Shown piece after piece: positions 2,411-50,976 of a DNA stretch of 64,000 nt. The DNA is from Amycolatopsis viridis (GTDB taxonomy: Bacteria; Actinomycetota; Actinomycetes; Mycobacteriales; Pseudonocardiaceae). Each line of letters begins with the position of its first letter. Within the stretch, counting starts at the first letter, position 1. The notes beneath the pieces were generated by a model. That model did not search any database, had not been told where the DNA came from, and worked only from the letters and a program-made list of their open reading frames with translations. A program made the translations under genes and the position numbers. The stretch is taken from assembly GCF_011758765.1 (NCBI RefSeq), contig NZ_JAANOU010000001.1, positions 3,224,001 to 3,288,000 on the forward strand. Direction: 5' to 3'.

Positions 2411-2424
2411 CACTCCCCGCCCTC

Positions 2425-2670: not shown

Positions 2671-2722
2671 CGACACCGTCCGCAGCCGACCTGGACGCCG
2701 CACGCCTGCTGCTGACCCGCAT

Positions 2723-15998: not shown

Positions 15999-16144
15999 TG
16001 GACACTCCCTGGATTCGGTTCCGCCCGGCGGTTCCGGGCTCCGGCATCCACGATGCGGGCGGGCGCGCTCCCGTGGCAGAGGCCGGTTATGGGGGGTACC
16101 GGCAGCCCCTCCATCGCCCGGCTGAACACGCCTAGCCTGGAGTC

Positions 16145-17038
16145 ATGGAAATCGCCAAGGACATCCGGGACTTCCTGATGACCCGCCGCGCGAAGATCAC
16201 CCCGGAGCAGGCCGGGCTCGTGCCCGGGGCACGGCGGCGGGTGCCCGGGCTGCGGCGTGAGGAGGTGGCGCGCCTGGCCGGCGTGAGCACCGAGTACTAC
16301 GTGCAGATCGAACGCGGTCAGATCTCCGGCGTGTCCGACGAGGTCCTGCACGCCATCGCCAGGGCGCTGCAGCTCGACGACGTCGAGACGGCCCACCTGT
16401 TCGACCTGGTGCGCGCCACCACCCGCCGCGCCGGGGCGCGCACGGCGAAACCGCGCGCCGCGCGGCAGCGGGTCCCCGACGGCGTGCAGGCGCTGATGGA
16501 CTCGATGGCCGGCGCCCCGGCGATCGTCCAGAACGGCCACCTCGACCTCGTCGGCGCCAACGCGCTGGGGCGGGCACTGTACGCCGGCGTGTCCGAGCGG
16601 GCCTCCGGGACGCCGAACCTGGCGCGGTTCATCTTCCTGGACGAGCGCGCCGCGGAGGTCTTCCCGGACTGGGAGAAGGCGGCCGACGACTCGGTGGCGC
16701 TGCTGCACGTCGAAGCGGCCCGCTCGCCCTACTCCAAGGTGGTCACCGGTCTCGTCGGGGAGCTGGCCACGCGCAGCGCGGAGTTCCGTGCGCGGTGGGC
16801 CGCCCACGACGTGCGGGCCCACCGGCGCGGCACGAAGCAGTTCCACCACCCGCTGGTCGGCGACCTCACCCTGCGCTTCGAAGCGCTCGAGATCACCAGC
16901 GCGGCCAACCTGACGCTGATCGGCTACACCGCGGAGCCCCGCTCCCCCTCGGCCGAGGCGCTGCAGCTCCTCGCGAGCTGGATCGCGACCGCGCCGTCAC
17001 CGGAGGCGAGCGCGCCCGCGGCGACTGACCGACAATGA
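16145..17038 (+). CDS. XRE family regulator with MmyB-like ligand-binding domain
   Basis: A 297-aa regulator. An N-terminal helix-turn-helix (RREEVARLAGVSTEYYVQIE, residues about 37-56) is followed by the MmyB-like domain (NGHLDLVGANALGRALY and RFIFLDERAAEVFPDW), which binds a hydrophobic ligand, in related proteins a fatty acid. It is transcribed away from the hydrolase at 15087 and probably controls it and itself. The LtrA gene follows after four bases, so both may be on one transcript. Confidence 0.9.
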   Translation: MEIAKDIRDFLMTRRAKITPEQAGLVPGARRRVPGLRREEVARLAGVSTEYYVQIERGQISGVSDEVLHAIARALQLDDVETAHLFDLVRATTRRAGARTAKPRAARQRVPDGVQALMDSMAGAPAIVQNGHLDLVGANALGRALYAGVSERASGTPNLARFIFLDERAAEVFPDWEKAADDSVALLHVEAARSPYSKVVTGLVGELATRSAEFRARWAAHDVRAHRRGTKQFHHPLVGDLTLRFEALEITSAANLTLIGYTAEPRSPSAEALQLLASWIATAPSPEASAPAATDRQ

Positions 17039-18184: not shown

Positions 18185-18570
18185 GCCTGGCCCGGCAGCG
18201 GGTCAGCACCTCCGCCGCGGACAGGGCGTTCCCGGGGGGACACGAAGGCGAGATGACGGTTTCGATCTCCCGCGGATACGCGTTGAACCCGCCGGTGATG
18301 ATCATGTCCTTGCGGCGGTCGAGGATGAACAGGAACCCGTCCTCGTCGAGGTACCCGACGTCACCGGTGTGCGCCCACCCACCCGCGAAGGTCTCCGCCG
18401 TCTCCTCGGGCCGGCGCCAGTAACCGGCGCTGACGTGGTCGCCCCGGGTCCGGATCTCCCCCGTCTCGCCGGGCGGCACCGGCCGCCGCGCTCGACGTGC
18501 AACTGCGCCTCGGTGGCGCCGTAGAACTGCTGCATCGCGTCGCCGAACCAGGCGCAGGCCCGCGCCGGGA
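18185..18570 (-). pseudogene. AMP-forming acyl-CoA ligase fragment with internal deletion
   Basis: Leftward, one frame gives FGDAMQQFYGATEAQL (the substrate-pocket TEA motif). A second frame then gives GETGEIRTRGDHVSAGYW, WAHTGDVGYLDEDGFLFILD and RRKDMIITGGFNAYPREIE, the hinge and C-terminal A8-like motifs of AMP-binding ligases. It then jumps to LSAAEVLTRCRARL. About 35 residues that normally lie between these two parts are missing, and the catalytic Lys tail and all of the N-terminal domain are gone. A clear pseudogene of a fatty-acid or aromatic CoA ligase. Confidence 0.8.
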
Positions 18571-19342: not shown

Positions 19343-20461
19343 TCAGTCGAACAGCACGACTCCCCGGATGTTCTTGCCCTCGTGCATGTCCCGGTACCCC
19401 TGCGCGATGTCGTCCAGCGGGTACGTCCTGGTGATCATCTCGTCGAGTTTCAACGTGCCCTCCTGGTAGAGCCGGAGCAGCCGGTGGACGTCCCGGTTCC
19501 CGCTCGTGGCACCGAAACACGTGCCCTCCAGGCGCTTCTGGAAGAGCGTCAGCTCGAACAGGTCGAGCGGCACGTCGCTGACCCGGTGCGGCCCGACCGC
19601 CGTGGTGACCACGATGCCCGCCTTGCGGACCGCCCCGAGCGCCTGGCCGACGTACTCCGGCCGCATGACCCCGACCGTGATGACGGCGGCGTCGGCACCC
19701 TGCCCATTGGTGAACTGCTTGGCGAGCTCCGTGGCCTCCGCCATCGACTCGACGGCGTGGGTGGCCCCGAACACCGGCGCCTGTTCCCGTTTGAAGGCCA
19801 CCGGATCCACCGCGATGACGTTCGACGCCCCCGCGTGGACGGCACCTTGCAGCGCGCTCGCGCCGATCCCGCCGACGCCCATCACGATCACCGTGTCCCC
19901 CGGCCGGACGCGGGCGGAGTTGACCGCCGAACCCCAGCCGGTGCTGACCCCGCACCCGACCAGGCACGCCTTGTCCAGCGGGATGTCCGGGTCGATCTTC
20001 ACCACCGAGGCCAGCGACACCGTCGTCGTCTCGGCGAAGGTGGAGATACCGCACATCTGGCCGACCGGCGTGCCCTCGGTGGTGTGCAGGCGGTAGGTGC
20101 CGTCGGTGAACCGGGGGCCGGCCAGGATGCCCGCGGCCAGGTCGCACAGGTTCGACGCCCCGGCAGCGCACCAGCGGCAGTGCCCGCACGAGGGAATCGC
20201 GGAGAAGATGACGTGATCGCCTTCCTCGATGCCCTTGGTGTTCGGCCCCGCCTTCGTCACGACGCCCGCACCTTCGTGCCCCAGTGCGAAGGGGTAGGTG
20301 CCGACCGGGATGTCCCCCGTGGCGTGGTGGTCGTCCGAGTGGCACAGCCCCGAGGCGACGAGCCGCACCTGCACCTCGTCCGGATAGGGGTCGTCCAGCT
20401 CGAGGTCGACCACCTCCAGCTCACCGGGCGCCTGCCGGATCACCGCTCCACGTGTGTACAC
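19343..20461 (-). CDS. NDMA-dependent (mycofactocin-type) zinc alcohol dehydrogenase
   Basis: A 372-aa zinc alcohol dehydrogenase. The catalytic zinc site is GLCHSDDH and GHEGAGVV. The structural zinc loop has four Cys (CGHCRWC and the C of NLC). The Rossmann motif is GVGGIG. The whole sequence fits the NDMA-dependent group (Rxyl_3153 type), whose tightly bound NAD is recycled by the redox cofactor mycofactocin; this link is known for the family, not shown here. It ends the importer operon, 13 bases after an ALDH, so alcohol import, oxidation to aldehyde and oxidation to acid are encoded together. A close paralogue is at 49834. Confidence 0.9.
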   Translation of the reverse strand: MYTRGAVIRQAPGELEVVDLELDDPYPDEVQVRLVASGLCHSDDHHATGDIPVGTYPFALGHEGAGVVTKAGPNTKGIEEGDHVIFSAIPSCGHCRWCAAGASNLCDLAAGILAGPRFTDGTYRLHTTEGTPVGQMCGISTFAETTTVSLASVVKIDPDIPLDKACLVGCGVSTGWGSAVNSARVRPGDTVIVMGVGGIGASALQGAVHAGASNVIAVDPVAFKREQAPVFGATHAVESMAEATELAKQFTNGQGADAAVITVGVMRPEYVGQALGAVRKAGIVVTTAVGPHRVSDVPLDLFELTLFQKRLEGTCFGATSGNRDVHRLLRLYQEGTLKLDEMITRTYPLDDIAQGYRDMHEGKNIRGVVLFD

Positions 20462-20474: not shown

Positions 20475-21953
20475 TCATGCGTCGAGCAGCGTGACCACGG
20501 ACTTGGTCTCGAGGTATTCCCCGATCGCCTCGGGTCCGTTCTCCCGGCCCCACCCGGACTGCTTGTAGCCCCCGACGGGCATCTGCACCCCGCCGGCGCG
20601 GTGGACGTTGATGCCGACCCGGCCGGCCCGCAGCCGGCGCGCGATCGAATGGGCTCGTGCGACGTCCCGGGTCCACACGCTCGCGGCCAGCCCGTAGTCG
20701 CTGTCGTTGGCCGCGGCGACCGCCGCGCCGACGTCGTCGAACGCCATCGCGCCGAGCACCGGCCCGAAGATCTCCTCGCGCACGATGCGCATCGACTGGT
20801 CGACGTCGGCGACCACCGTGGGCTGGAAGAAGAAACCCTTGTCCCCGATGCGGGATCCGCCGGTCAGCACCCGTGCGCCCGCCTCGATCCCGCCTTCGAC
20901 GTACCGGCTGACGCGGGCGAGCTGGCGTTGCGAGATCAGCGGCCCCAGATCCACGGACGGCTCCGTGCCGTACCCGACCTTGAGATCGCCCGCGTATTCC
21001 GCGATTCCGTGCACGAGTTCGTCGAACACGTCCCGGTGGGCGAACAGCCGGGTGCCGGACGTGCAGATCTGCCCGGAGTTCCAGAACACGCCCATGGCGA
21101 TGCCCGGAACCGCCGCGGCCAGGTCCGCGTCCGGCAGCACGACGACCGGGGACTTGCCGCCCAGCTCGAGGGAGACCTTCTTGAGGTTGCCGGTGGCGGC
21201 GCGCACGATCTGCCTGCCGACCTCCGTCGAACCGGTGAAGCTCACCTTGTCGATGCCGTCGTGGGCGGCCATCGCCGCCCCGGCCGGCAGCCCGTACCCG
21301 GTGACGATGTTGACCACCCCGTCCGGCACGCCGGCCTCGAGCAGGATCCGTCCGAGTGCGAGCGTGGTGAGCGGCGCCTCCTCCGAGGGCTTCAGCACGC
21401 ACGAACACCCGGCGGCCAGAGCCGGGGCCAGCTTCTGCGACACCGCGATCATCGGCGCGTTCCACGGGACGATCAGACCGGCGACGCCGACGGGTTCACG
21501 GAGCGTGTACCCGTGCAGGCGCCGCTCGGCCGTGCCGGCCTGGACGCTCCGGCCGTCGATCTTGTCCGCCCATCCGGCGAAGTACCGGAACTGGTTGACC
21601 GCCTCGCCGGCCATGGCCCGCGCCTGGGACACCGGCATGCCCACGTCCAGGCTCTCCAGGCGGGCCAGCTCGTCGGCGCTCGCCTCGATCAGCTCGGCGA
21701 CGCGCCACAGGACCACCGCCCGCTGGGCGCCGGACAACCGAAGCCAGCGCTCGTCCTCGAACGACCCGCGGGCCGCTCGCACCGCCGCGTCGACGTCCGC
21801 GACGCCGCCCTCGCCGGCTTCCGCGACGACCTCACCGGTGCCGGGGTCGAGGACCGGGAAGGTCTTCCCGGAAACCGCCGGAACCCAGGATCCGCCGATG
21901 AGCATCCGTCCCGGGTCGACGAGCCGGACGGGGTGCGTGCCGGTACCCGTCAT
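20475..21953 (-). CDS. Aldehyde dehydrogenase
   Basis: A 492-aa aldehyde dehydrogenase with VPWNAPMIAVSQKLAPALAA, VSFTGSTEVGRQIV, LELGGKSPVVVLPDADL and the catalytic Cys in NSGQICTSGTR. The C-terminal GGYKQSGWGRENG is complete. It is one base downstream of the ABC ATPase stop region's opposite end (the genes abut at 21953/21955), so it is within the importer operon. Likely oxidises the aldehyde produced by the neighbouring NDMA-type alcohol dehydrogenase. Confidence 0.9.
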   Translation of the reverse strand: MTGTGTHPVRLVDPGRMLIGGSWVPAVSGKTFPVLDPGTGEVVAEAGEGGVADVDAAVRAARGSFEDERWLRLSGAQRAVVLWRVAELIEASADELARLESLDVGMPVSQARAMAGEAVNQFRYFAGWADKIDGRSVQAGTAERRLHGYTLREPVGVAGLIVPWNAPMIAVSQKLAPALAAGCSCVLKPSEEAPLTTLALGRILLEAGVPDGVVNIVTGYGLPAGAAMAAHDGIDKVSFTGSTEVGRQIVRAATGNLKKVSLELGGKSPVVVLPDADLAAAVPGIAMGVFWNSGQICTSGTRLFAHRDVFDELVHGIAEYAGDLKVGYGTEPSVDLGPLISQRQLARVSRYVEGGIEAGARVLTGGSRIGDKGFFFQPTVVADVDQSMRIVREEIFGPVLGAMAFDDVGAAVAAANDSDYGLAASVWTRDVARAHSIARRLRAGRVGINVHRAGGVQMPVGGYKQSGWGRENGPEAIGEYLETKSVVTLLDA

Positions 21954-21954
21954 G

Positions 21955-23442
21955 TCAGTGCACCGCCGCGAACATCAGCCGCTGGTCGTCGGCCTCGGCC
22001 GGGTCGAACTCGGCCGCGATGCTGCCCTGCCGCGCCACCAGGATGCGGTCGGACAGCGCGCGGATCTCCGGCAGGTAGGACGAGATCACCACCACGGCCA
22101 CGCCCTCGTCGGCGAGCGCCCGGATCATCGCGTGGATCTCCACGATCGTGCCGAGGTCCACGCCGCGGGTCGGCTCGTCGATGATCGCCACCAGCGGCTT
22201 GCGCGTCAGGCCCTTCGCCAGGACCACCTTCTGCTGGTTGCCGCCGGACAGCTCGACGAGCTTCGCCCGGTCGGGCCGCAGGGTGCGCACCTGGAACCGG
22301 TCGACGAACCGCTTCGCGAGGGACTTGCGCTCCCCCGGCCGCAGCAGGAACGGCAGTCGCGCCGAGCCGCAGATGTGGCCCAGGTGGATGTTGTCCGCGA
22401 TGCTGAAGTGGCTGAAGAACCCGGACGCCTTGCGGTCCTCGGTGATGTAGACGACGCCGGCCTTGCGGGCCTGCCGCGGCGTGCGGAACCGGACCTCGCG
22501 TCCGGCGACCCGGACCTTGCCACCGCGCAGCCGCCGCCGCTTCATGATCCCGCTGACGATCATCGCGACCTCGCTGCGCCCCGCGCCGACCAGCCCGTAA
22601 ATCCCGACGATCTCACCCGGGCAGGCCGAGAACGACATGTTGCGCACCACCGGCAGCAGGGTGACATCCTCCACCTCGAGCACCGGGGTGGGGTCCGGTG
22701 CCCGGCCGGGCGGCACCCGGCCGTACTCGACATCGCGTCCCACCATCATCCGGACGACCTCTTCCCGGTCGAACTCCGGTTTGGACAGCGTGCCCTGCAC
22801 CGCGCCGTCACGCAGCACCGTGATCCGGTCGGCCTCGCTGAACGCCTCGTCGAGCATGTGGGTGATGAAGATGACCCCGATGCCGTCCCGCTTGAGCCGC
22901 TGCATCGACAGGAACAGCTGCAGCCGCTCCTCCGGCGTCACCGACGACGTCGGCTCGTCCAGGATGACGACCTTGGCCCTGCGGTGCACCGCGCGCGCGA
23001 TCTCCACCATCTGCTTCTGGGCCACACCCAGCGCGCCGACGGTCACTTCCGGCCGGATGTGGAAGTTGTGCGATTCCAGCAGCTCACGCGCCACGATGTT
23101 GAGGTGCGAGAGGTTGTTGAACACCTTCTCCTGGCCCAGGAACAGGTTCTGGGCCACGGTCATCGACTCGACCAGCGATCCCTCCTGGTAGACCATGGCG
23201 ATCCCGGCCGCGGCGGAGTCCTTCGGCGTCGCGAACCGCCGCTCCACCCCGTCGACGGTGAGGGTGCCGGCATCGTGCGTGATCGCCCCGGAGATGATCT
23301 TCACCAGGGTGGACTTGCCCGCGCCGTTCTCGCCCAGCAGGGCGTGGATTTCCCCGGGGCGGACGTCGAAGCTCACGTCGCGCAGCGCGTAGGTGCCGCT
23401 GTAGCGCTTGCTCACCCCGTCGAGCCTGATGACCGGCTCCAT
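21955..23442 (-). CDS. Sugar-type ABC transporter ATP-binding protein (RbsA-like, two NBDs)
   Basis: A 495-aa ATPase with two nucleotide-binding domains, as in RbsA/XylG/MglA. NBD1 has Walker A GENGAGKST at residues 37-45, the GVAQKQMVEIARA signature region and ILDEPTS. NBD2 has the usual degenerate Walker A (GLVGAGRSE), a proper LSGGNQQKV signature and IIDEPTRGVDLG. ATG at 23442 has AGGAG upstream and follows the propeller gene stop by four bases; in-frame starts upstream would overlap that gene. It energises the importer formed with 24523, 26711 and 27815. Confidence 0.93.
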   Translation of the reverse strand: MEPVIRLDGVSKRYSGTYALRDVSFDVRPGEIHALLGENGAGKSTLVKIISGAITHDAGTLTVDGVERRFATPKDSAAAGIAMVYQEGSLVESMTVAQNLFLGQEKVFNNLSHLNIVARELLESHNFHIRPEVTVGALGVAQKQMVEIARAVHRRAKVVILDEPTSSVTPEERLQLFLSMQRLKRDGIGVIFITHMLDEAFSEADRITVLRDGAVQGTLSKPEFDREEVVRMMVGRDVEYGRVPPGRAPDPTPVLEVEDVTLLPVVRNMSFSACPGEIVGIYGLVGAGRSEVAMIVSGIMKRRRLRGGKVRVAGREVRFRTPRQARKAGVVYITEDRKASGFFSHFSIADNIHLGHICGSARLPFLLRPGERKSLAKRFVDRFQVRTLRPDRAKLVELSGGNQQKVVLAKGLTRKPLVAIIDEPTRGVDLGTIVEIHAMIRALADEGVAVVVISSYLPEIRALSDRILVARQGSIAAEFDPAEADDQRLMFAAVH

Positions 23443-23446
23443 CTCG

Positions 23447-24526
23447 TCACTCCTCATCGTCGACCGCCAGCAGGTTCCGGTAGCCGCGAGCGGCGACCAC
23501 CAGTTCCCCGCCACGCACCGCCACTCCGGTGACCCCGTGCCGCTCACCGTCCACCCGGGACTGCAGGCTCTCCGCCACGCGGCCGCCGGCGTCCATCCGG
23601 AACACCAGCCCGTAGGAGCGGGCCGGCGCCCACGGCTTGAGCACGCCGAGCACCCGCAGCTGCCCCATCTGGGGCGTGTCCGTGTACGGATTGGTGCTGC
23701 GCAGCCGCGGCACGAACCAGTCGCGCGGCGCGACGGTCGCCGTCATGTCCGCCAGGACCTCGGGTTCGTCCAGCAGCAGCTCGGTGATGCGGTTGCGCAC
23801 GTAGGGCGCGGCGGCCCACCAGCCGTCACCCGCGGCCACCAGGCGGCCCGGGTAGACCGGCAGGTTCGCCACGAACGGGCGCGCCGGGCGGGACAGGGAC
23901 GCCACGGCCCGCCGTTCGATCCGGTGGTCCAGGCTCAGGGACACCAGCACGTCGCCACCGGGTGCCGTCTCGATCCCGGAGGGCCAGGCCAGTCCCTCGG
24001 CCTCGACCCGCGCCGCCGCACCGTCCACCCGCACGATCCGGCCCGACCGGTCGCCGCGTACCAGGGCCCGGGCCCACCCGTCGGCCCGCTCCTGGCTCGA
24101 ACCGACCGTCAGCAGCAGGGAACCGTCCGGCAGCGCGGCGATGTCCGTGACACACGACGACACCGCGTCGTCCGTGCAGAGCTCCTCGACGGACCCGGAC
24201 TCGTCCAGCGCGACCAGGCCGGTTCCCTCGACCGCGGCCACGACCCGGCCGCCCACCGCGGTGAGGCTGCCGACGGCACCGCCGAGCTCGGCCACCGTCC
24301 GCACCTGCCCGTCCCGCAGGGCGCAGACCCGGTTGCCGCTGGAGAACACGAGCGCTCCCCAGGCGGGCGCCACGTCGTCCGGCTCGTAGGCGCCGTCCGG
24401 CAGCAGCACCCTGCTCTCGTCCAGGCGGCTGTTGGGGCGCAGCCCCGCCTCCATCGGCGGCACCGTGCGGTGCCGCGCCCACGCCGGGTTGATCCATTCC
24501 TTGATCGCCGCGACCGTCCGGTTCAC
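23447..24526 (-). CDS. SMP-30/strictosidine-synthase-like beta-propeller protein
   Basis: A 359-aa protein built of repeated beta-propeller blades, for example SLTAVGGRVVAAVEGTGLVAL and TDIAALPDGSLLLTVGSS. PSGIETAPGGDVLVSLSLDH matches the substrate-side blade of SMP-30/gluconolactonase proteins, many of which are lactonases or carry metal-assisted hydrolase activity. There is no signal peptide, so it should be cytosolic. The GTG start at 24526 overlaps the preceding gene by four bases (GTGA), so the two are tightly coupled. It is a diverged relative of the propeller fused to the permease. Enzymatic role (lactone hydrolysis of the imported compound) is inference. Confidence 0.75.
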   Translation of the reverse strand: MNRTVAAIKEWINPAWARHRTVPPMEAGLRPNSRLDESRVLLPDGAYEPDDVAPAWGALVFSSGNRVCALRDGQVRTVAELGGAVGSLTAVGGRVVAAVEGTGLVALDESGSVEELCTDDAVSSCVTDIAALPDGSLLLTVGSSQERADGWARALVRGDRSGRIVRVDGAAARVEAEGLAWPSGIETAPGGDVLVSLSLDHRIERRAVASLSRPARPFVANLPVYPGRLVAAGDGWWAAAPYVRNRITELLLDEPEVLADMTATVAPRDWFVPRLRSTNPYTDTPQMGQLRVLGVLKPWAPARSYGLVFRMDAGGRVAESLQSRVDGERHGVTGVAVRGGELVVAARGYRNLLAVDDEE

Positions 24527-26688
24527 CGCTCCACCTCCGCCAACGGCCGGGCGGCACCGGCCGTGCCGGGCACCGCGGCCGGGTCGATCGGCCCGACGTC
24601 CTCGGGGTCGAGCGTGAGGCGGCCGACCCGGTTGTTGTTGACCCCGCACAGGTACAGCCGGCCGTCGCGTTCGTTGATCGAGGTGACCATCGGGTAGTTC
24701 GCCAGCGTCGAGTCCCACAGGACCTTCAGCACCTGTCCGCGCTCGTCGAACTTCAGCACGCACGACACGTTGAGCTGCGGGACCACCCAGCTGTCCAGCG
24801 GCACCTCCTGCGTCATCCGGCGCCGGAACGCCGGGTACTTCACCAGCAGGTCCGACATCGGGGTGCGCATCGACACGAAGGCCATCCAGTAGTTGCCGTC
24901 GGAGGCCCGGTTGATGTTGTCCGGGTGGCCGGGCAGGTTCTCCAGCACCGGCTCGAGCTGTCCCTGCTTCGGGCCGGCGATCCACAGCCGGTCCACCCGG
25001 CACAGCGTGGTGCTGGCGATCAGCACCGACTGTCCGTCGTGGGCGGTGCAGATTCCGTTCGGGAACACCAGGTTGGAGGCGACCACCTCGGTGCCGCCGT
25101 CCGGGTCGACGCGCACGACGCGCCCGTTGGGCCGGGACTCCACCAGCTCGACCATGTACTCGGCGGCGTTGTGCCGGGCCGAGAAGTCCGACACGTACAG
25201 GGATCCGTCCGGGGCCACGTCGAGGTCGTCGACCGCCCGCAGACCCGAATCGTCGAGCAGCGACAGGCGGCTCCGGCGGACCTTGTTGGCGACCAGTTCC
25301 GGCTCGCCGTCCGGGTGGATCCGGTAGACGCCCATCCCGCCGACCGCCACCACGAGGCGGCCTTCGCGGTCCCACGTGTGGCCGAGCGGAAGCCCGCCGG
25401 TGCGGGCGAAGATCTCGCCCTCGGCGTGGTCCGGGCCGGAGAACCGCCAGATCCAGCCGCGGCGGTCACCGCAGTACAGGTTGCCGCCGGGGTCCACCGC
25501 GCAGTCCTCGGCGCCCTCGATCTTCCCGAGGCCGATGGTCGGCGCGTCCGTGAGGCGGTTGTTGATCGTCCACACCGTGCCCGGCTCGGTGACGTCCACC
25601 AGTGGTCCCAGCGTGATCCGTCCCGGGTCGATCTTGAGTTTCTCCGCGGTGCGCTCGCGGTACTTGCCCCACTTCAGGTCGAGGATCGCGAACAGCAGCA
25701 GCACCGCCGCGAGGATCGCGGTGTAGTAGGAGCCTTCGAGCCCCAGCGCCACGGTGGCCTGCAGGATGACGCCGACGACGAGGATGCCGACGGTCGCCCG
25801 CAGCACCGAGCCGCGGCCGCCCTTGAGGCTGACCCCGCCGAGCACGACCGCGGTCAGCGCCACCAGTTCCCAGCCCTGCCCGACGTCGGCGTCGGTCCGG
25901 CCCAGGCGGGCGGCGGTGAGCAGCCCGGCCGTGCCGGCGAGCGCCCCGGACAGGAGGTAGACGCAGAACGTGACCCGGTCCACCGGGATGCCGTTGCGGC
26001 GGGCGGAGCGCCGGTCGGAGCCGACCGCCATGACCCACCAGCCCCAGCGCGACCGGGTCAGTCCCACGTGGACGACGACCAGCACGACGAGGAAGATGAA
26101 CCACCCGGTCGGGATGCCGGCCACCGTGCCCTCGCCCAGGAAGTTCCACACGAGGTCCTCCTTGGGCAGGCCGAGCTCGAAGCTGTAGGAGCTCTGCAGC
26201 GCCGCCGCCGCACCCCCGAAGGCCACCAGTGTCACCAGGGTGGTGATGAACGGCCGCATCTTGAGCCGGGCGATCAGGAACCCGTTCACCGCGCCCAGCC
26301 CGGCCCCGGCCACGATCGTCGCCGGCACCACCAGCGCCATCGGCCAGTTCCAGGCCCGCGACGCGACCATCGCGCCCAGGGAGGCGAGGCCGACGATCGA
26401 GCCGACCGACAGGTCGATCCCGCCGCCCACGAGCACGACGGTGAGCCCGATGGCGAGCAGCCCCTTCTCCGTCGCCTCGTCGAGGATGAGCGGGACGTCC
26501 ACCCCGCCCACGGGCGTGGTCCCCCACACGATGACGCTGAGCACCACGGCCAGGGTCAGCGGGACCGCACCCTCCATCCAGCGCTTTGCGAACAGGTCGG
26601 ACAGGGTGCGCAGCGGCGCGAACCGGGCGCCGCGGCCCTGTCCGGTGAGCGCGAACGCGTCCACGCCCGAGCGGGATTTGATCTTCAT
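24523..26688 (-). CDS. ABC permease (RbsC-like) fused to a strictosidine-synthase-like propeller
   Basis: A 721-aa fusion. Residues about 30-345 form a ribose-type ABC permease with eight to ten helices and the family motifs VVLVGGGIDLSVGSIVGLAS and VVLGGVSLKGGRGSV. A basic linker (about 340-385) leads to a propeller at about 386-705. EGAEDCAVDPGGNLYCGD, VVASNLVFPNGICTA and LPGHPDNINRASDGNYWMAF are typical of strictosidine-synthase/APMAP-like proteins. No stop or frameshift separates the halves. RbsC C-termini are normally cytoplasmic, so the propeller should sit at the channel's inner mouth. ATG 26688 was chosen because upstream codons look noncoding. Confidence 0.88.
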   Translation of the reverse strand: MKIKSRSGVDAFALTGQGRGARFAPLRTLSDLFAKRWMEGAVPLTLAVVLSVIVWGTTPVGGVDVPLILDEATEKGLLAIGLTVVLVGGGIDLSVGSIVGLASLGAMVASRAWNWPMALVVPATIVAGAGLGAVNGFLIARLKMRPFITTLVTLVAFGGAAAALQSSYSFELGLPKEDLVWNFLGEGTVAGIPTGWFIFLVVLVVVHVGLTRSRWGWWVMAVGSDRRSARRNGIPVDRVTFCVYLLSGALAGTAGLLTAARLGRTDADVGQGWELVALTAVVLGGVSLKGGRGSVLRATVGILVVGVILQATVALGLEGSYYTAILAAVLLLFAILDLKWGKYRERTAEKLKIDPGRITLGPLVDVTEPGTVWTINNRLTDAPTIGLGKIEGAEDCAVDPGGNLYCGDRRGWIWRFSGPDHAEGEIFARTGGLPLGHTWDREGRLVVAVGGMGVYRIHPDGEPELVANKVRRSRLSLLDDSGLRAVDDLDVAPDGSLYVSDFSARHNAAEYMVELVESRPNGRVVRVDPDGGTEVVASNLVFPNGICTAHDGQSVLIASTTLCRVDRLWIAGPKQGQLEPVLENLPGHPDNINRASDGNYWMAFVSMRTPMSDLLVKYPAFRRRMTQEVPLDSWVVPQLNVSCVLKFDERGQVLKVLWDSTLANYPMVTSINERDGRLYLCGVNNNRVGRLTLDPEDVGPIDPAAVPGTAGAARPLAEVER

Positions 26689-26710: not shown

Positions 26711-27784
26711 TCACTGGCCCTTGTAGCAGGCGATGGTCGTGTTGTCGACGTTCGAGCGGTCCACCACCGCGTGCGAGACGTAGGCCACGCTGTGCGTGCT
26801 GCCCGGCGCCACACCGGTCTGGATCAGCTGCTGCGCCGTCACGACCGCCGCCGCGCCGACGCCCTGGACGTCGTAGGCGACCGAAGCGGTCACCTTGCCC
26901 GCCCGCAGCGCGTCGCACCACAGCGTGTCGGCGGCCATCGTGTAGACGCCGATGGAGTTCGGCCGGATCACGCCGCGGGCCGCCGCCTCGGACACGGCGT
27001 CACCGACGGCCACCGAGTTGAGGTCGTAGGTCACCAGGTAGGCGCAGAGGTTGTCCTTCTGCTGCTGCGTGATCGACGCCGCCGCCTGCTGCGCGGCCGC
27101 GTTCTGCCACTGGGTGTGGGCGGTGGCGACCACCTCGTAGCCGGCCGGGTCGGCCACGTCGTGCACCCCCTTGGACCACTGCAGCGACGCCGCGTCGTTG
27201 CCCGGGCCGTCGATGATCGCCAGGCGCTTGGCACCGCCGTGCTGGCCGCAGTCGGCGATGGCCCGCCTGGTGATGTCCTGCGCCGCGTGCACCACGTCGA
27301 CGCCGATGAACGCGTCACCGAGCTGGCTGGACATCATGTTGACGACGATGGTGTAGATGCCCGCCTTGCGCGCGTCCTCGATCTGCTTGGTGAGCACGCC
27401 GACGTCGGTGTTGTGCAGGATCAGGACGTCGGCTTCCTTCCGCGAGATCAGGTCGTTGACGATCTTGACCATCTTGTCGGGGTCGAAGTTGGCGTCGTAG
27501 ACCTGGAACTGCGCGCCGAGGTTGTCGAACGCGCGCTGCATCGACGCGCCCCAGTTCTGCGTCAGGTTGTAGCCCTTGTACAGGATCGGCACGAACGCGA
27601 CCCGCTTGCCCTTCATGACGTCGTGCGCCTTCTGGTTCGCGTCGAAGAGCTGGGCGGTGTCGCCGAAGGCCTGGTTACCGCCGCCCGGCGCGCTCCCGGA
27701 CGAACCACTGCTGCCGGTGGTGCACGCCGTCATCGCGACGGCCGCGGCGACCGCGGTCAGCAGGGCGGTGATCTTCCTCTTCAT
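26711..27784 (-). CDS. ABC transporter substrate-binding lipoprotein (ribose-type)
   Basis: A 357-aa periplasmic-binding-protein type I. A lipoprotein signal runs from residue 1 with MTAC at 18-21, giving lipidated Cys21, followed by a Ser/Gly-rich linker. The mature part has FVPILYKGYNLTQNWGASMQ, the NDLISRKEADVLILHNTD hinge region and LNSVAVGDAVSEAAARGVI, as in RbsB-like sugar or quorum-signal binders. It delivers ligand to the permeases on either side. The ligand cannot be read; the alcohol and aldehyde dehydrogenases of the operon suggest a polyol, alcohol or similar. Confidence 0.9.
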   Translation of the reverse strand: MKRKITALLTAVAAAVAMTACTTGSSGSSGSAPGGGNQAFGDTAQLFDANQKAHDVMKGKRVAFVPILYKGYNLTQNWGASMQRAFDNLGAQFQVYDANFDPDKMVKIVNDLISRKEADVLILHNTDVGVLTKQIEDARKAGIYTIVVNMMSSQLGDAFIGVDVVHAAQDITRRAIADCGQHGGAKRLAIIDGPGNDAASLQWSKGVHDVADPAGYEVVATAHTQWQNAAAQQAAASITQQQKDNLCAYLVTYDLNSVAVGDAVSEAAARGVIRPNSIGVYTMAADTLWCDALRAGKVTASVAYDVQGVGAAAVVTAQQLIQTGVAPGSTHSVAYVSHAVVDRSNVDNTTIACYKGQ

Positions 27785-27814: not shown

Positions 27815-28831
27815 TCACAGTTCGTCGGTCTTCGCGGTCTCCTCGTCCCGCGGGTGCAGCCAGGCGTCGAGCGCGATCGCGGCGATCAGCACGCCGCCGC
27901 GGACCAGGTCCTGCATGGCGGTGCTCAGGCCGTGCAGGATCAGCAGGTTGTTGAGCACGCCCACGAACAACGCGCCGGCCAGGACGCCGAGGATCGTGCC
28001 CCGCCCGCCGGACAGCGAGACTCCACCGATCACGGTCACGGTGAGCGCGGTGAACAACAGCGGGTCGAACGAGGTGACCGTGGTCTGGACACTGCCCTGG
28101 ATGGACACCGTCACGTACCCGGCCAGCAGGGCCAGCAGCGCGGAGAGCACGTAGGTGAGCATCTGGAGCGGCCGGACGGGCGCGCCCGTCGAGCGCGCGG
28201 TGGCGAAGTTGTCCCCCATCGCGCGGATCAGCCGGCCCGGCGCGGTGAAGGTCACGAACAACCACGCGAGCAGGAAGACGGCCCCGGCGATGAGCACCGG
28301 CCGGGGCACGCCCAGGACCGAACCGTTGCTGAGCGCGGAGATCGCCGATCCCGGCGGCAGCGCGTAGAAGTTCTGGTCGAGCAGGAAGATGTCGACGCCG
28401 CCGATCGTCAGCAGGCCGGTGGCCAGCGTCGCGAACAGCGCGGGCACCTCGAGGTAGGCGACCAGGAGACCGTTGACGACGCCGATCACCAGCGCGAGCC
28501 CGGCGATCAGCAGGATCGCCTGCCATTCGGACATGCCGCCGGACATGAACGCGAGCGTGGCCTGCGCGCACCCGAGTGCGACGCCGGCGACCGACAGGTC
28601 GATGCCCTTGCCGAGGATCACGATGGCCAGGCCGATCGCGAGGATCCCGAACGCGGCCGACAACCGCAGCAGGCTCGCGAAGTTGCCGCCGGTGAGGAAA
28701 CCCTCCGTGGTCACCGCGCCGGCCACGCACAGCACCACCGTGATGACGAGGACGAAGAACCCCTGTTCGGCGCGGGCGAGCCGGTCACGGAGGGACAGGC
28801 CGGGCCTCGCGTCCGCCGCAGCCACTGCCAT
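27815..28831 (-). CDS. ABC transporter permease (RbsC-like)
   Basis: A 338-aa permease, first gene of the importer operon. Motifs: GLAIVILGKGIDLSVAGVAL, VNGLLVAYLEVPALFATLAT and VIGGVSLSGGRGTILGVLAG, standard for BPD_transp_2 permeases that pair with RbsA-type ATPases. It has usual length and about ten helices, so with the fused permease at 24523 the channel is probably a heterodimer. ATG 28831 is chosen. An AT-rich palindrome (28923-28932) lies about 90 bp upstream and is the probable promoter/operator of the whole operon to 19343. Confidence 0.9.
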   Translation of the reverse strand: MAVAAADARPGLSLRDRLARAEQGFFVLVITVVLCVAGAVTTEGFLTGGNFASLLRLSAAFGILAIGLAIVILGKGIDLSVAGVALGCAQATLAFMSGGMSEWQAILLIAGLALVIGVVNGLLVAYLEVPALFATLATGLLTIGGVDIFLLDQNFYALPPGSAISALSNGSVLGVPRPVLIAGAVFLLAWLFVTFTAPGRLIRAMGDNFATARSTGAPVRPLQMLTYVLSALLALLAGYVTVSIQGSVQTTVTSFDPLLFTALTVTVIGGVSLSGGRGTILGVLAGALFVGVLNNLLILHGLSTAMQDLVRGGVLIAAIALDAWLHPRDEETAKTDEL

Positions 28832-29055: not shown

Positions 29056-29952
29056 TCACCGCTCCAGGTGCTCCCGGAGGAAGCCGGCGATGGCGCGCAG
29101 CCCGCGACGGTGCCCGGGGTGGGTCGGCAGCTGCAGGAACCCGTGGGGCGCGCCCGGCACCGGGACGAACCGGTGCGGGACGGCGGCCGCGGCCAGCCGG
29201 TCCGCGAGCGCGACCGACTCGCCGAAGAGCGGATCGTCTTCCCCGGCCAGCACCAGCGACGGCGGGAAATGCGCGCAGTACCGCTCGGGGTGCAGGCGCG
29301 GGTCGTCGGTCAGCCGCCGCGCGTCGGCCGGTTCCAGGTACTGCTGCGTGTCCACCTCGGCACCGCCGAGGAGGTCGGCCAGGACGGGCAGCGCGCGGTG
29401 GACGTCGTAGATGCCGTAGCACAGCAGGGCCGCCGCGACCCCTGCCCCGTGCCCGGACGCCAATGCGGCGGCGGCCAGGTTCGCCCCCGCGGAATCGCCC
29501 CCGACGAGCACCCGTGCCGGATCGCCGCCGAGACCGGCGGCGTGCTCCCGCACCCAGCCCAGAGCGTGCACGGTGTCCTCGACCGCCGCCGGGAACCGGT
29601 GCCGTGGCGCACGCCGGTAGTCGAGGACGACGGTGAGCAGGCCCAGCGCGGCGAGATCCGCCGCGAGCCTGCGGTGGCTGGCCGGCGCACCGAGCACCCA
29701 CGCGCCGCCGTGCAGGAACAGCAGCGTGGGAAACGGCGGGTCGCCGGCCGGCCGGTACACGTCGGCGGTCACCCGCCAGCCGGCGATCTCCCGCACTGGG
29801 ACGCCATGCGTGACAGCCGCGACCCGGGGCCCCTCGGCGTTGGTGTAGCCGTCGAAGGACGCCAGCAGGTCACGGACCGTTTCCCCATCGCGCACCTTGA
29901 GCGTGCGCTGGAACTCCAGCAGGCGCGCCGGCACGCCGTCCACCGTGGTCAC
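29056..29952 (-). CDS. HSL-family alpha/beta hydrolase (esterase)
   Basis: A 298-aa esterase/lipase of the hormone-sensitive lipase family. The oxyanion motif HGGAWVLG, the nucleophile GGDSAGANLAAAAL, the acid region AGEDDPLFGE and the His GAPHGFLQL are all present. GTG 29952 overlaps the Zn-dehydrogenase stop by four bases. It is last in the operon that begins with MaoC at 34675. Next door is a Baeyer-Villiger monooxygenase (36448) that would make esters or lactones, so this enzyme could hydrolyse its product; that pairing is inference. Confidence 0.85.
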   Translation of the reverse strand: MTTVDGVPARLLEFQRTLKVRDGETVRDLLASFDGYTNAEGPRVAAVTHGVPVREIAGWRVTADVYRPAGDPPFPTLLFLHGGAWVLGAPASHRRLAADLAALGLLTVVLDYRRAPRHRFPAAVEDTVHALGWVREHAAGLGGDPARVLVGGDSAGANLAAAALASGHGAGVAAALLCYGIYDVHRALPVLADLLGGAEVDTQQYLEPADARRLTDDPRLHPERYCAHFPPSLVLAGEDDPLFGESVALADRLAAAAVPHRFVPVPGAPHGFLQLPTHPGHRRGLRAIAGFLREHLER

Positions 29953-31067
29953 GCGCCCGGCGCGATCATCACGTGCACGGCGTCCTCCCCGGGCACGCGG
30001 CCGGCGAGGGTCTCGACGGCCAGCGGCACCTGCTCCAGACCGAACGTGTGCGTGTGCAGCAACTCCAGCGGGTACCGCCGCGACTCGATCAGCCGCAGCG
30101 CGGGCTCGAACGCGCGGATGTCCTGTGACCACAGGCCCTTCACGGTCAGCTCCTTCGTCACGATCCGATCCGGGGCCAGCCCGCTCACCGTCGCGCCCGA
30201 TCCCTTCACCCCGGCCAGCACGACCGTCGCCCCCGGCTTGGCGATCTCGACGGCGTCCACGATCGGCTGGGTCGCCACCGCGGTCACGTCCACGACGACG
30301 TCCGCCCCCTCGCCGCCGGTCGCCTCGGCGACCGCGGCGACGGTGTCCTCGGTGTCGGCGACGACGGTGACGTCCGCACCGAGCCTGCGGGCGAGCTCGA
30401 GCTTGTGCGCGTCCCGGGCGAGCCCGGTCACGATGATGCGGCCCGCCCCGGCCTCCCGTGCGGCGACCACGCCGGCCAGGCCGCGCTGCCCGCAGCCCAG
30501 GACCACGACCGTGTCCCCGGCCCGCAGGCCGGAGTCGAACGCGAACCACCGCAGGCCGGCGGCCATCGGCTGGTAGAGCGCGGCCAGCTCGAGCGGGAGG
30601 TCCGGGTCCAGTTTGTGCAGCACGGTCCGCGGGTCGAGGTACAGGTACTCCGCGTAGCCGCCCCACAGGCCCGGTCCGGCGCTCGTCGGCAGGTAGCCGT
30701 AGGCGTTGATCGCCGCGCCGTGGCGCGAACTGACGCAGCGGCGGTAGTTCCCGGTCAGGCAGGCGCGGCAGGAACCGCAGCCCAGGACCGGTTCGACCGC
30801 GACCCGGTCGCCGACCCGCACCCGCCAGCGCCGCGCCGCCTCGGCCCCGATCTCGGCGATCGTCCCGACCGGTTCGTGGCCGGGGATCAGCGGGTAGGCG
30901 ACACCGAGCGCGGCGAACCCGCCGTCGTACTGCTCGACGTCGCTGCCGCACATGCCGCAGGCGTCGACCCGCAGCAGCGCCTCGTCCGGGCCGATCCGGG
31001 GCAGGGGGAACTCCTGGATCTCGTAGCGGCGATCGGCCACCTGGACCGCGGCCCGCGCCGTGGCCAT
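29949..31067 (-). CDS. Zinc-dependent alcohol dehydrogenase (MDR family)
   Basis: A 372-aa medium-chain dehydrogenase. The catalytic zinc ligands are in ACGMCGSD and GHEPVG; the structural zinc loop is CGSCRACLTGNYRRC; the Rossmann motif is VLGCGQRGLAGV. It resembles threonine/sorbitol-type dehydrogenases, with a GC replacing the classic GAG of the loop. ATG 31067 shares a base with the acyl-CoA dehydrogenase stop (TGATG). Likely oxidises a secondary alcohol or hydroxyacyl intermediate of this operon. Confidence 0.85.
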   Translation of the reverse strand: MATARAAVQVADRRYEIQEFPLPRIGPDEALLRVDACGMCGSDVEQYDGGFAALGVAYPLIPGHEPVGTIAEIGAEAARRWRVRVGDRVAVEPVLGCGSCRACLTGNYRRCVSSRHGAAINAYGYLPTSAGPGLWGGYAEYLYLDPRTVLHKLDPDLPLELAALYQPMAAGLRWFAFDSGLRAGDTVVVLGCGQRGLAGVVAAREAGAGRIIVTGLARDAHKLELARRLGADVTVVADTEDTVAAVAEATGGEGADVVVDVTAVATQPIVDAVEIAKPGATVVLAGVKGSGATVSGLAPDRIVTKELTVKGLWSQDIRAFEPALRLIESRRYPLELLHTHTFGLEQVPLAVETLAGRVPGEDAVHVMIAPGA

Positions 31068-32227
31068 CAGTAGGCCCGCGGCAGGCCGAGGACCTGCGTC
31101 GAGATGTAGTTCAGCACCATCTCCTGCGAGAACGGCGCGTTGCGCAGCAGCCGCACCTCCCGCCACAGCCGTTCGATGTGGTACTCCTTCGCATACCCGA
31201 AGCCGCCGTGCGTGGACAGCGCCCGGTCGCACGCCTGCCAGCCCGCCTCCGCGCCGAGGAACTTCGCGGCCGCCGACTCTGGGCCGCAGGGCTGGTGCGC
31301 GTCGAACAGCCCGGCCGCCTTCATGCACATCAGCTCGGCCGCCTCCAGCCGAATCCAGGCGTCGGCCAGCGGGTGCGCCACCGCCTGGTTCTTGCCGATC
31401 GGCCGGTCGAACACCACGCGGTCGTTGGCGTACTTGGTGGCCAGCTCCAGCGCCGCCCGGCCGAGCCCGATGCCCTCGAGCCCGACCACCGTGCGCTCCG
31501 GGTTCAGGCCGTCGAGCAGGTAGTAGAAGCCCTTGTCGACCTCACCGACCACCTCGTCGTCGCCGACCTCGAGGTTGTCGATGAACAGCTCGTTGGAGTC
31601 GATCGCGGCGCGGCCCAGCTTCTCGATCTCCCGCACCGTGATCCGCTCGCGGTTCAGGTCGGTGAAGAACAGGGTCATCCCGTGCAGCGGCTTGTCCTCG
31701 CGGCGCGGCGAGGTGCGGGCCAGCAGCAGGATCTTGTGCGCGTTCTGCGCGTTGGTGATCCACACCTTCTGGCCGTTGACCACCCAGCCGCCGTCGATCC
31801 TGGTGGCCTTGGTCTTGATGCGCGAGGTGTCCACGCCGGCCGTCGGCTCGGTGACACCGAAGGCCATCAGGATCTCGCCCCTGGCGAGCTTCGGCAGCCA
31901 CTCCCGCTTCATCTCCTCCGAGCCGTGCCGCACGATGGGCGCCGGCGGGAACACGTAGAAGTGGATCGCCGAGCCGCCGCTCATGCCGGCGCCGGACGCG
32001 GCGATCTCGGACATCATCACGCCGGCCTCGGTCAGCCCGAGCCCGATCCCGCCGTACTCCTCGGGGATCATCGCGCCCAGCCAGCCGCCCTCGGCGAAGG
32101 TCTTGACGAACTCCCACGGGTATTCGTGCTTGCGGTCCTTCTCCAGCCAGTAGTCGTTGTCGAACTTCCGCGCCAGCTCACGCGTGGCCTTCCGGACGAT
32201 GTCGACGCTGCTCTCTTCCGCGGTCAT
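31067..32227 (-). CDS. Acyl-CoA dehydrogenase lacking the canonical C-terminal Glu
   Basis: A 386-aa acyl-CoA dehydrogenase. It has PEEYGGIGLG, FGVTEPTAGVDTS, VWITNAQNAHK and DRPIGKNQAVAHPLADAW in proper order. The usual EGTxxIQR near the C-terminus, source of the catalytic Glu in most family members, reads RNAPFSQEMV here. Instead Glu244 in LNPERTVV lies where isovaleryl-CoA and long-chain dehydrogenases place their base. This suggests a branched or bulky acyl-CoA substrate. ATGA overlap couples it to the upstream synthetase. Confidence 0.9.
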   Translation of the reverse strand: MTAEESSVDIVRKATRELARKFDNDYWLEKDRKHEYPWEFVKTFAEGGWLGAMIPEEYGGIGLGLTEAGVMMSEIAASGAGMSGGSAIHFYVFPPAPIVRHGSEEMKREWLPKLARGEILMAFGVTEPTAGVDTSRIKTKATRIDGGWVVNGQKVWITNAQNAHKILLLARTSPRREDKPLHGMTLFFTDLNRERITVREIEKLGRAAIDSNELFIDNLEVGDDEVVGEVDKGFYYLLDGLNPERTVVGLEGIGLGRAALELATKYANDRVVFDRPIGKNQAVAHPLADAWIRLEAAELMCMKAAGLFDAHQPCGPESAAAKFLGAEAGWQACDRALSTHGGFGYAKEYHIERLWREVRLLRNAPFSQEMVLNYISTQVLGLPRAY

Positions 32228-34173
32228 CGGTGGTCCTCCTGCTCGGCGGAAACGGGGATGTCGGTCAGCGGCGTGGCCGGGTCGAGCGAGGACAGGTCGC
32301 CCACCGGCTCGCCCAGGTGCCGGGCCCGGATGGCGCGGCGCATGATCTTGCCGTTCTTGGTCTTCGGCAGCGTCGGCACGACGTGCAGCACGGGCGCGAA
32401 GGAGCGGCCCGCGTTGCGCAGCGCGGTCGCCTCCAGATCGGCCTGGTCGACGGCGCGCTCGCGCAGCACCACGAACGCGACGGCGCGCTGGCCGCGCCGC
32501 TGGTCCGGCACGCCGATGACCGCCGCCTCCGCGATGCGGCTGTCCTTCAGCAACGCCGTCTCGATCTCCGCCGGGCCGACCCGCCGTCCGGAGAGCTTGA
32601 TCGTGTCGTCGGAGCGGCCGTGGATGCGCCAGGTGCCGTCACCGTCCACACTGGCCAGATCGCCGTGCAGCCAGACGCCGTCCCAGCGGCTCCAGTACGT
32701 CTCCAGGTACCGGTCCCGGTCGCGCCAGAAGGCGTGCGTCATGCCGGGGAACGTGTTGCGCACGGTCAGCTCCCCGACCTCACCCACCACCGGGGCGCCG
32801 TCGGCGTCCAGGACGGCCGCGTCGACGCCGGGCAGCGGCCCGTTGAACGAGGCCGGTTTCATCGGCAGGAACGGGTAGCCGACGAGCAGCCCGCCCCCGA
32901 CCTCGGTACCGCCGCTGTAGTTGATGATCGGGCGGGTGGACAGCCCGACCTCCTTGAACAACCACCACCAGGTCGGCTCGTCCCACGCCTCCCCGGTGGA
33001 CACGAAGGCGCGCAACGTGCCCAGGTCGGCGAAGGACCCGTCGCTGCTCGCCATGATCGCCCGTGCGGCGGTGGGCGCGATGCCCTGCACGGTGACGCCG
33101 TTGCGCTCGACGATGTCCCACATCCGGCCGGGGTGCGGGTGGACCGGCACGCCCTCGATCATCACGATCGTGGCCCCGAGCTGGAGCGGCCCCATGATGA
33201 GCAGCGGGCCCACGAGCCACCCCATGTCGGTGATCCAGGAGACCACGTCGTCGTCGTGCACGTCGAAGCCGTAGGCGAAGTCGACCGCGGCCTTCACCGC
33301 CAGGCCGGCGTGGGAGTGCACGATCCCCTTCGGCTTGCCGGTGGTGCCGGAGGTGTAGACGATCGCGAGCGGGTCGTCGGACTCGGTGGCGGCCGTGCCG
33401 ACCGGCTCCGGATCGGCCGCGAGCTCGTCCCAGTAGACGTCGCGCCCGGCACGCATCTCCACGCCGTGCGCGAGGTGGCGGACCACCACCACGTGCCGGA
33501 CCGAGGGCGCCGATTCCAGCGCCTCGTCGGCGACCTCCTTCAGCGGCACGCGCTTGCCGCGCCGGGTGGTGCCGTCGGCCGTGACCAGGAGAACCGCCTC
33601 GGAGTCCTGCAGGCGCGTGGCCAGCGCCTCGGCGCCGTAACCGGTGAAGGCCGGAACGGCCACCGCCCCGATCATCGCGATGCCCAGGAACGCCACCACC
33701 GACTCCGGCACGACCGGCACGTACAGCACCACCCGGTCGCCCGCCCGGACGCCGAGACGCGCCAGGTTGGCGGCGAACCGGCGCACCTGCTGGGACAGCT
33801 GGGCGTAGGTCAGCGAGCGTCGCTGCCCGCTGTCGCCCTCGTAGACCACGGCGGTCTTGCCGGCCCGCTCACCCACCGCGTGGCGGTGCGCGCAGAGCAC
33901 CGCGGCGTTGACCCGGCCGCCGGGGAACCAGCGCGGGAAGGGCTTGCCCTCGCTGTCGTCGCGGACCCGCTCGAACGGCTCGTCGAAGGCGACGCCGAGA
34001 TCCTCGACCACCGCGCGCCAGAACCACTCGGGGTCCTCGACCGACGCCCGGTGCAACTCCTCGACGCTGTCGTGTCCCCAGCGCCGCATCGCCGCCAGGA
34101 GGCGGCTGCGCTCGCGTTCCGCCGCGCCGGGCACCCAGGCGTACGCGGTGCCCGTGTCTTCGGTCACTGGCAT
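32224..34173 (-). CDS. AMP-forming acyl-CoA synthetase, acetyl-CoA-synthetase-like
   Basis: A 649-aa ligase with the N-terminal cap found in acetyl/propionyl/acetoacetyl-CoA synthetases (EWFWRAVVEDLGVAF), P-loop YTSGTTGKPKGIVHSHAG, the NYSGGTEVGGG pocket motif, WLHGDLAS, and the C-terminal Lys motif PKTKNGKIMRR. It forms an acyl-adenylate and then an acyl-CoA. It lies after MaoC (22 bp) and overlaps the acyl-CoA dehydrogenase start, so it probably activates that enzyme's substrate. Short or branched acids are typical of the subgroup. Confidence 0.9.
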   Translation of the reverse strand: MPVTEDTGTAYAWVPGAAERERSRLLAAMRRWGHDSVEELHRASVEDPEWFWRAVVEDLGVAFDEPFERVRDDSEGKPFPRWFPGGRVNAAVLCAHRHAVGERAGKTAVVYEGDSGQRRSLTYAQLSQQVRRFAANLARLGVRAGDRVVLYVPVVPESVVAFLGIAMIGAVAVPAFTGYGAEALATRLQDSEAVLLVTADGTTRRGKRVPLKEVADEALESAPSVRHVVVVRHLAHGVEMRAGRDVYWDELAADPEPVGTAATESDDPLAIVYTSGTTGKPKGIVHSHAGLAVKAAVDFAYGFDVHDDDVVSWITDMGWLVGPLLIMGPLQLGATIVMIEGVPVHPHPGRMWDIVERNGVTVQGIAPTAARAIMASSDGSFADLGTLRAFVSTGEAWDEPTWWWLFKEVGLSTRPIINYSGGTEVGGGLLVGYPFLPMKPASFNGPLPGVDAAVLDADGAPVVGEVGELTVRNTFPGMTHAFWRDRDRYLETYWSRWDGVWLHGDLASVDGDGTWRIHGRSDDTIKLSGRRVGPAEIETALLKDSRIAEAAVIGVPDQRRGQRAVAFVVLRERAVDQADLEATALRNAGRSFAPVLHVVPTLPKTKNGKIMRRAIRARHLGEPVGDLSSLDPATPLTDIPVSAEQEDHR

Positions 34174-50952: not shown

Positions 50953-50976
50953 AGTCTGGTCTCCTTCGCTCGTCGT

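Follow-up and report, generated by a model that had tools for sequence, protein, structure and literature searches.

A conserved five-gene importer cassette in which one channel subunit carries an SMP-30-type propeller and a second, altered propeller is encoded beside it

Does a gene at positions 24523 to 26688 of a stretch of the Amycolatopsis viridis genome truly join an ATP-binding cassette (ABC) importer permease to a strictosidine synthase-like beta-propeller, and if so, what might the propeller contribute to import? The stretch, referred to here as the window, comprises 64,000 nucleotides (assembly GCF_011758765.1, contig NZ_JAANOU010000001.1, positions 3,224,001 to 3,288,000 of the forward strand); coordinates are counted from its first letter, and features in the window lie on the minus strand. 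An earlier note, made from the letters of the window, had claimed an in-frame fusion of a complete permease (residues 30 to 345) with a complete propeller (residues 386 to 705). This claim was borne out by an uninterrupted open frame of 721 amino acids with an ATG start, on a strand that the note had left unstated. Pfam placed BPD_transp_2, marking an RbsC-type permease, at residues 76 to 333 (132.8 bits; cut-off, 26.8), followed by SSL_N at 373 to 416 (44.6 bits; cut-off, 18.9), SGL at 423 to 606 (46.3 bits; cut-off, 26.3) and Str_synth at 487 to 572 (67.7 bits; cut-off, 25). Since all four domains exceed their curated cut-offs, the match is not due to chance, and the plus-strand reading of the same interval gave no Pfam match up to an E value of 1. 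The proposed domain limits were about right: hydropathy and charge place the permease part at residues about 44 to 335 (25684 to 26559), and conservation and charge across the family define a basic, presumably cytosolic linker at residues 336 to 372 (25573 to 25683), which leads into a propeller of the SSL/SMP-30 type at residues about 373 to 697 (24598 to 25572). The best NCBIfam score of the fusion, 159.6, lies below the equivalog cut-off of 398 for the RbsC ribose permease.

We compared 41 cassettes built around such a fusion, the window's own and 40 others, from actinobacteria and alpha-, beta- and gammaproteobacteria. Many are close relatives, including the window, L028 and L052 (about 98%), five from Nocardia, and L047 to L051. 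A first set of 33 cassettes was used for residue counts, with eight cassettes fetched later from the window's order as a further test; L053, taken as the same locus as L028 (Amycolatopsis deserti), was dropped from all counts. The join between permease and propeller is open in 41 of 41 cassettes, including the region near 25650 where the earlier note had considered that resequencing might reveal a stop or frameshift. The paralogs L044, L045 and L046 were each flagged with one TGA, and in each the fused frame is open across the whole aligned part. The linker of about 40 residues holds D337, W340, K342, R344 and P355 without change in 33 of 33 cassettes. In a tree of 49 sequences (21 fused and 21 partner propellers from 21 of the first 33 cassettes, plus 7 stand-alone propellers), the fused propellers occupy one side of a branch with support of 100/99. 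An open join in every locus, shared by actinobacteria and three proteobacterial classes, a single tree group and invariant linker residues all contradict a sequencing, assembly or gene-boundary artefact, and we reject that origin as having virtually no chance of being correct.

The genes around the fusion encode the remaining parts of an importer. On one side lie a substrate-binding protein (26711 to 27784; Peripla_BP_4, 107.8 bits against a cut-off of 35.1) with a lipobox-like start, read by eye, and a second, unfused permease (27815 to 28831; BPD_transp_2, 108.1 bits against 26.8). On the other side, overlapping the fusion by 4 bases, lies the gene for a second, separate propeller, P0002 (23447 to 24526; 359 amino acids, GTG start), recognized by alignments of relatives and by a fold match and altered at its site, and beyond it an ATPase of the AraG/RbsA type with two ABC_tran stretches (21955 to 23457, or to 23547 with an alternative start), for which the best NCBIfam models are the AraG, xylose and RbsA ATPases. 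Permease, binding protein, fusion, second propeller and double ATPase follow one another on one strand in 39 of the 41 cassettes. In the other two, L046 and L049, the contig stops no more than about 350 bases from the fusion, towards the missing genes. The fusion and an adjoining second propeller gene are present in all 41. With BPD_transp_2 permeases, a single ATPase chain with two nucleotide-binding domains and a Peripla_BP_4 binding protein, the system is an importer of the CUT2/RbsC type. The binding protein gave no substrate identity, its solved relatives being weak (best E value, 4.6e-7). The earlier note had seen the fusion and missed both the divergent propeller encoded next to it and the occurrence of the cassette across distant phyla. 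Its remark that it knew of no characterised importer of this design agrees with the open-access literature, in which no title or abstract beginning reported a permease-propeller fusion or such a cassette; this is weak evidence of absence, subscription papers being outside that scope. As far as we found, the cassette is a conserved importer type made of known parts in a new arrangement, with no earlier description.

Among proteins of solved structure, the one nearest in sequence to the fused propeller is TGW6 (8kg3; E value, 1.3e-20), and there are weak sequence matches to DFPase and gluconolactonase. According to the sections of the TGW6 report drawn on here, TGW6 is the rice hydrolase of indole-3-acetic acid-glucose, an acyl-glucose ester, and its Glu59, Asn167, Asn226 and Asn272 occupy the Ca2+-chelating places of this propeller fold; the Ca2+-binding members compared with it have at least two acidic residues at these places, and TGW6 itself has one, contained no Ca2+ in the crystal and was more stable when Ca2+ was added (PMC10958001). 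When the TGW6 stretch was aligned with all propellers in two MAFFT runs, Asn167, Asn226 and Asn272 fell on D487 (25228 to 25230), N544 (25057 to 25059) and N591 (24916 to 24921, together with D590) of the fusion. Glu59 fell on the glutamate of a GPE(D) motif in the stand-alone propeller L061, which aligns with E394 (25507 to 25509). Across the first 33 fusions, the columns of these putative ligands and of D590 read Glu in 33, Asp in 28 and Asn in 5, Asn in 33, Asp in 33 and Asn in 33, respectively, and all five window residues, including Asp at 487, recur in the eight fusions fetched later. We take these motifs to supply the metal ligands of SMP-30, DFPase and paraoxonase. Residues matching the Ca2+ ligands of DFPase/gluconolactonase-type hydrolases are thus kept in 41 of 41 fused propellers, and the putative set contains at least two acidic residues (E394 and D487, the latter place being Asn in 5 of 33), as do the Ca2+-binding members described in those sections of the TGW6 report.

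The second propeller has a different fate. In the same MAFFT runs, TGW6 Asn167, Asn226 and Asn272 fell on T, S and R of the partner, and the residue of P0002 at the N591 place is Arg228. Among the partners of the first 33 cassettes, the five columns hold Asp (30) or Glu (3) at the first place; Thr (32) or Ser (1) at the second; S, A, G, Y, F, T, Q or C, never Asn, at the third; G, A or S, never Asp, at the fourth; and Arg (32) or Lys (1) at the fifth. All eight later partners have Arg at the fifth place, with neither Asn nor Asp at the two places before it; in L098 the first place is taken by Gln and the second is a gap. Overall, the last place is Arg in 40 and Lys in 1, and each of the 41 partners departs from the Ca2+-ligand set: Asn and Asp are both absent from three of the five places, and a fourth holds T, S or a gap. 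P0002 scored 18.1 bits for SGL, below the Pfam cut-off of 26.3. Its structure model (mean predicted local distance difference test [pLDDT], 73.1, with poor stretches at 11 to 29, 268 to 304 and 325 to 329) nevertheless has an SSL-type fold, its best Foldseek matches being strictosidine synthase (E value, 7.1e-14), TGW6 (3.4e-13) and paraoxonase (9.2e-11).

The partner evolves faster than the fused propeller, its identity being the lower of the two in 421 of 421 cassette pairs (those with fused propellers less than 60% identical). It is not simply decaying, however, because it has near-invariant residues of its own (T127, H201, R228 and H330, each in 32 of 33) and an insert, QxG...KPW, that the fused propeller does not have. 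In the tree, the partner and stand-alone groups each lie on one side of a branch, as the fused group does (100/100 and 100/98, respectively). Judged by these sequences, the two propellers took opposite paths, the fused one keeping and the partner mostly losing a metal-type site, and the second propeller is an altered twin in every cassette seen.

On which side of the membrane would the fused propeller lie? Family-averaged counts of Lys and Arg are 8 at the N terminus, 7 in the loop at 208 to 242 and 7 in the tail at 335 to 372, against 0 to 2 in the presumed outer loops, and further basic stretches lie at 136 to 145 and 283 to 301 in the averaged hydropathy and charge profiles. The hydropathy plot merges several helices (76 to 135) and does not separate every one; the side was assigned from charge. 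Since the basic tail with its invariant residues leads into the propeller, the propeller is most likely cytosolic. The inner-face position supposed in the earlier note is consistent with this charge pattern, on which the assignment of side depends.

We therefore arrive at a proposal to which we assign a probability of about 0.5: an importer with a metal-dependent ester or lactone hydrolase tethered at its cytosolic exit and paired with a re-purposed propeller. Its side, pairing, docking, metal binding, hydrolysis and substrate class are what we infer from the pattern above. The two different channel subunits of this sugar-type (CUT2/RbsABC-like) ABC importer would probably pair, one of them bearing a metal-dependent SSL/SMP-30-type hydrolase propeller on its cytosolic end. 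The lipoprotein-like binding protein would capture the substrate, which would pass through the channel when the double ATPase fires and would meet the tethered propeller at the exit, where an ester, lactone or acyl conjugate would be hydrolysed. The hydrolysed product could not leak back and would pass to dehydrogenases and CoA (coenzyme A)-linked oxidation. The second propeller, with its metal site lost and a central Arg gained, would be a dedicated subunit, most likely docking next to the fused propeller or below the other channel, and it would bind a carboxylate product or gate the hydrolase. That the reaction may be hydrolysis of an ester, a lactone or an acyl conjugate is our best guess by analogy, because the nearest solved relative hydrolyses an acyl-glucose ester. 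The earlier note had suggested that the propeller could bind, trap or hydrolyse the ligand on entry; the kept TGW6-type Ca2+ places, as defined in the sections of that report cited above, would fit binding or hydrolysis.

Several observations weigh against this proposal. The match of Glu59 to L061 is weak taken alone (i-E value, 0.23), the HMMER alignment of the fusion with TGW6 has gaps near D487 and puts Asn167 opposite S481, and Asn replaces D487 in 5 of 33 fusions. The first place of the partner is still acidic in all of the first 33 cassettes and in 7 of the 8 later ones, and the partner's loss of the site is incomplete. The AlphaFold2 model of the fusion (mean pLDDT, 43.7) does not fix where the pocket lies with respect to the channel, and fold searches made no use of it. 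Relatives of none of the window's aldehyde dehydrogenase, alcohol dehydrogenase, acyl-CoA dehydrogenase and AMP-ligase were found in the searched range of 15 of the 41 cassettes, and no single substrate is indicated. Finally, in the sections of its report drawn on here, TGW6 is a hydrolase without Ca2+ in the crystal, so that hydrolysis in this family may not need metal and a ligand set alone is no proof of chemistry (PMC10958001).

How far the two propellers would act in concert is a matter on which readings diverge. We entertain, tentatively, vectorial chemistry, in which the metal hydrolase in the channel and the Arg-bearing, non-metal propeller would together receive the substrate at the cytosolic exit and release only hydrolysed product. 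Transport and substrate chemistry are usually distinct processes in ABC importers; were this reading true, import and the first catabolic step would be one machine, and metabolic trapping would proceed by hydrolysis instead of phosphorylation, through an enzyme/pseudo-enzyme pair spread across phyla. The same pair could serve as a ligand-sensing gate, the fused propeller binding cytosolic product as it accumulates and, with the Arg propeller, stopping the transporter, much as importers of methionine or molybdate are trans-inhibited through regulatory domains of their ATPase. Such a gate would be in keeping with the covalent attachment to the channel, with the variety of catabolic neighbours and with a paired partner that has its own conserved residues and insert. 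A sensor would have no need of a metal set of the hydrolase type, yet this set is kept in 41 of 41 fusions, and the regulatory domains of known ABC importers sit on the ATPase; we consider a gate rather unlikely.

The kept metal site speaks likewise against propellers that are scaffolds, docking downstream soluble enzymes such as dehydrogenases and ligases to the importer with no chemistry of their own. Propellers are often docking platforms, and catabolic enzymes are encoded beside many cassettes, yet these enzymes vary from locus to locus while the propellers are constant, and we regard a pure scaffold as improbable. Hydrolysis by a tethered propeller beside a re-purposed twin is the reading that we prefer.

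Two further activities were considered for the fused propeller. Strictosidine synthase activity, the Pictet-Spengler reaction, is unlikely because Thr stands at the place of the catalytic glutamate, which we take to be Glu309, in all of the first 33 fusions and all 8 later ones, the place being located by a weak second HMMER stretch. For a plain gluconolactonase we found no support beyond the metal set, and many loci have CoA-linked catabolic neighbours. Running counter to purely CoA-linked neighbourhoods, a Pantoea flank carries sugar-type genes, and MFS or TRAP transporters are encoded close to the cassettes of Nocardia L030 and Georgenia L034.

The distribution of the cassette is wide and patchy. 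A scan of bacterial genome contigs gave eight relatives (one Amycolatopsis, one Streptomyces, five Nocardia and one Georgenia). Among plasmids, 16 records (H1 to H16) matched the fusion, and in 14 of these a single place covered 80% or more of the query. The second propeller was found in the same 16 accessions; in H16 (NZ_CP015745), which is outside the 41 cassettes, the fusion lies at the end of the record and the partner at its start. Twelve plasmid records with gene names were compared, all of alpha-, beta- or gammaproteobacterial origin. The five-gene order is annotated in 11, and in the twelfth the stretch stops before the ATPase. Their fusions are annotated as "SMP-30/gluconolactonase/LRE family protein" in 10 of 12 and as "ABC transporter permease" or RbsC in the other 2; either way, current annotation hides the fusion, and the present finding would correct it. 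Within the window's family, 13 of 249 genomes hold the fusion at an E value of 1e-100 or below (best four candidates per genome scored). Across the phylum, only the window's own genome of 396 does so at 1e-60 or below, a scan that scored the best two candidates per genome and may miss some. The partner propeller was found in 10 of 397 genomes of the window's order at 1e-20 or below (best five per genome scored). The plasmid locations and patchy distribution suggest that the cassette spread horizontally. Because the fused, partner and stand-alone propellers each form one group in the tree, the sequences fit a single fusion event followed by spread of the whole cassette.

Other genomes of the window's genus, to which cassettes L044 to L053 belong, hold fusion paralogs at about 45% identity, and some carry two or three fusions (three each in G003 and G011, two in G002). 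In G003 and G011, one copy is 98 to 99% and two are about 45% identical to the window fusion. Therefore, the paralogs of this genus may serve different substrates.

Which pathway the importer might feed was examined through its neighbours. Downstream in the same gene run are an aldehyde dehydrogenase (20475 to 21953; Aldedh, nearest in NCBIfam to phenylacetaldehyde dehydrogenases, below cut-off) and an NDMA-dependent alcohol dehydrogenase (19343 to 20461; TIGR03989, 547.8 bits, cut-off 440), a family linked to the mycofactocin cofactor. Upstream in the run are an alpha/beta hydrolase (29056 to 29952, scanned over 29056 to 29910; Pfam Abhydrolase_3) and, by family searches, a Zn alcohol dehydrogenase, an acyl-CoA dehydrogenase and an AMP-binding enzyme like acetate/acetoacetate-CoA ligases (29949 to 34173). 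A MaoC protein is also encoded on the cassette strand. BLAST with the enzymes of the window itself, limited to set distances and to the available flanks, placed relatives of both the aldehyde and the alcohol dehydrogenase close to the fusion in 11 of 41 cassettes; of these, three are near copies (window, L028 and L052) and three belong to one genus (L099 to L101). Elsewhere, the cassette has thiolase, MaoC and SDR genes nearby in Streptomyces, thiolase and acyl-CoA dehydrogenase in L044, and FadA/FadB, CoA-transferases or HMG-CoA reductase at other, plasmid-borne loci. This context suggests that the substrates probably differ between loci and would often be handled as alcohols, acids or CoA esters.

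Some further features of these neighbourhoods were observed. A second relative of the NDMA-dependent alcohol dehydrogenase lies in the window at about 49836 to 50976, 73% identical to that at 19343 to 20461 in the aligned part. At about 18230 to 18470, a short stretch in a long open frame resembles, by eye, the C-terminal part of an AMP-forming acyl-CoA ligase and is apparently a fragment. The L051 cassette has genes for an AMP-ligase and a nitronate-monooxygenase-like protein on its upstream side and is followed immediately by a TetR regulator gene, with a pair of adjacent KASIII-type genes further on; L047 and L050 have unannotated frames sized about as the AMP-ligase, nitronate-monooxygenase-like and TetR genes of L051. 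A metallo-beta-lactamase-fold protein is encoded within a few kilobases of the cassette in L029 (Streptomyces; 15416 to 16453, plus strand) and L034 (Georgenia; 2106 to 3140, plus strand) and may be another hydrolase acting in the same pathway.

With an enzyme-like domain on the channel of a conserved importer, catalysis coupled to import would become testable in a simple system of five genes, and the parts of this importer can be set against known ones. The fused propeller exceeds the Str_synth Pfam cut-off, a likeness shared with strictosidine synthase (2fp8, 6s5u and others). With SMP-30/gluconolactonase, DFPase, Drp35 and paraoxonase it shares the metal-ligand pattern E, N/D, N, (D)N; we know of no role as an importer subunit for any of these. 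TGW6 (8kg3) has the same places for Ca2+-type residues, but it has only one acidic residue there, as given in the cited sections of its report, and no transporter joined to it, whereas 28 of 33 fusions have Asp where TGW6 has Asn167. Stand-alone bacterial SSL proteins (L014, L020, L023, L061, L062, L063 and L073) are about 30 to 34% identical to the fused propeller and form a separate tree group, and the three that were checked, L061 to L063, have the metal residues as the fused propeller does; beside the four with annotated flanks that were inspected, no importer cassette was found. The CUT2-type importers (RbsABC, AraFGH, XylFGH and GguAB) share the BPD_transp_2 permeases, the two-ABC_tran ATPase and the Peripla_BP_4 binding protein. 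In contrast to them, the fusion scores below the NCBIfam equivalog cut-offs shown, and the cassette has two different permeases, one with a C-terminal propeller, and an extra propeller subunit.

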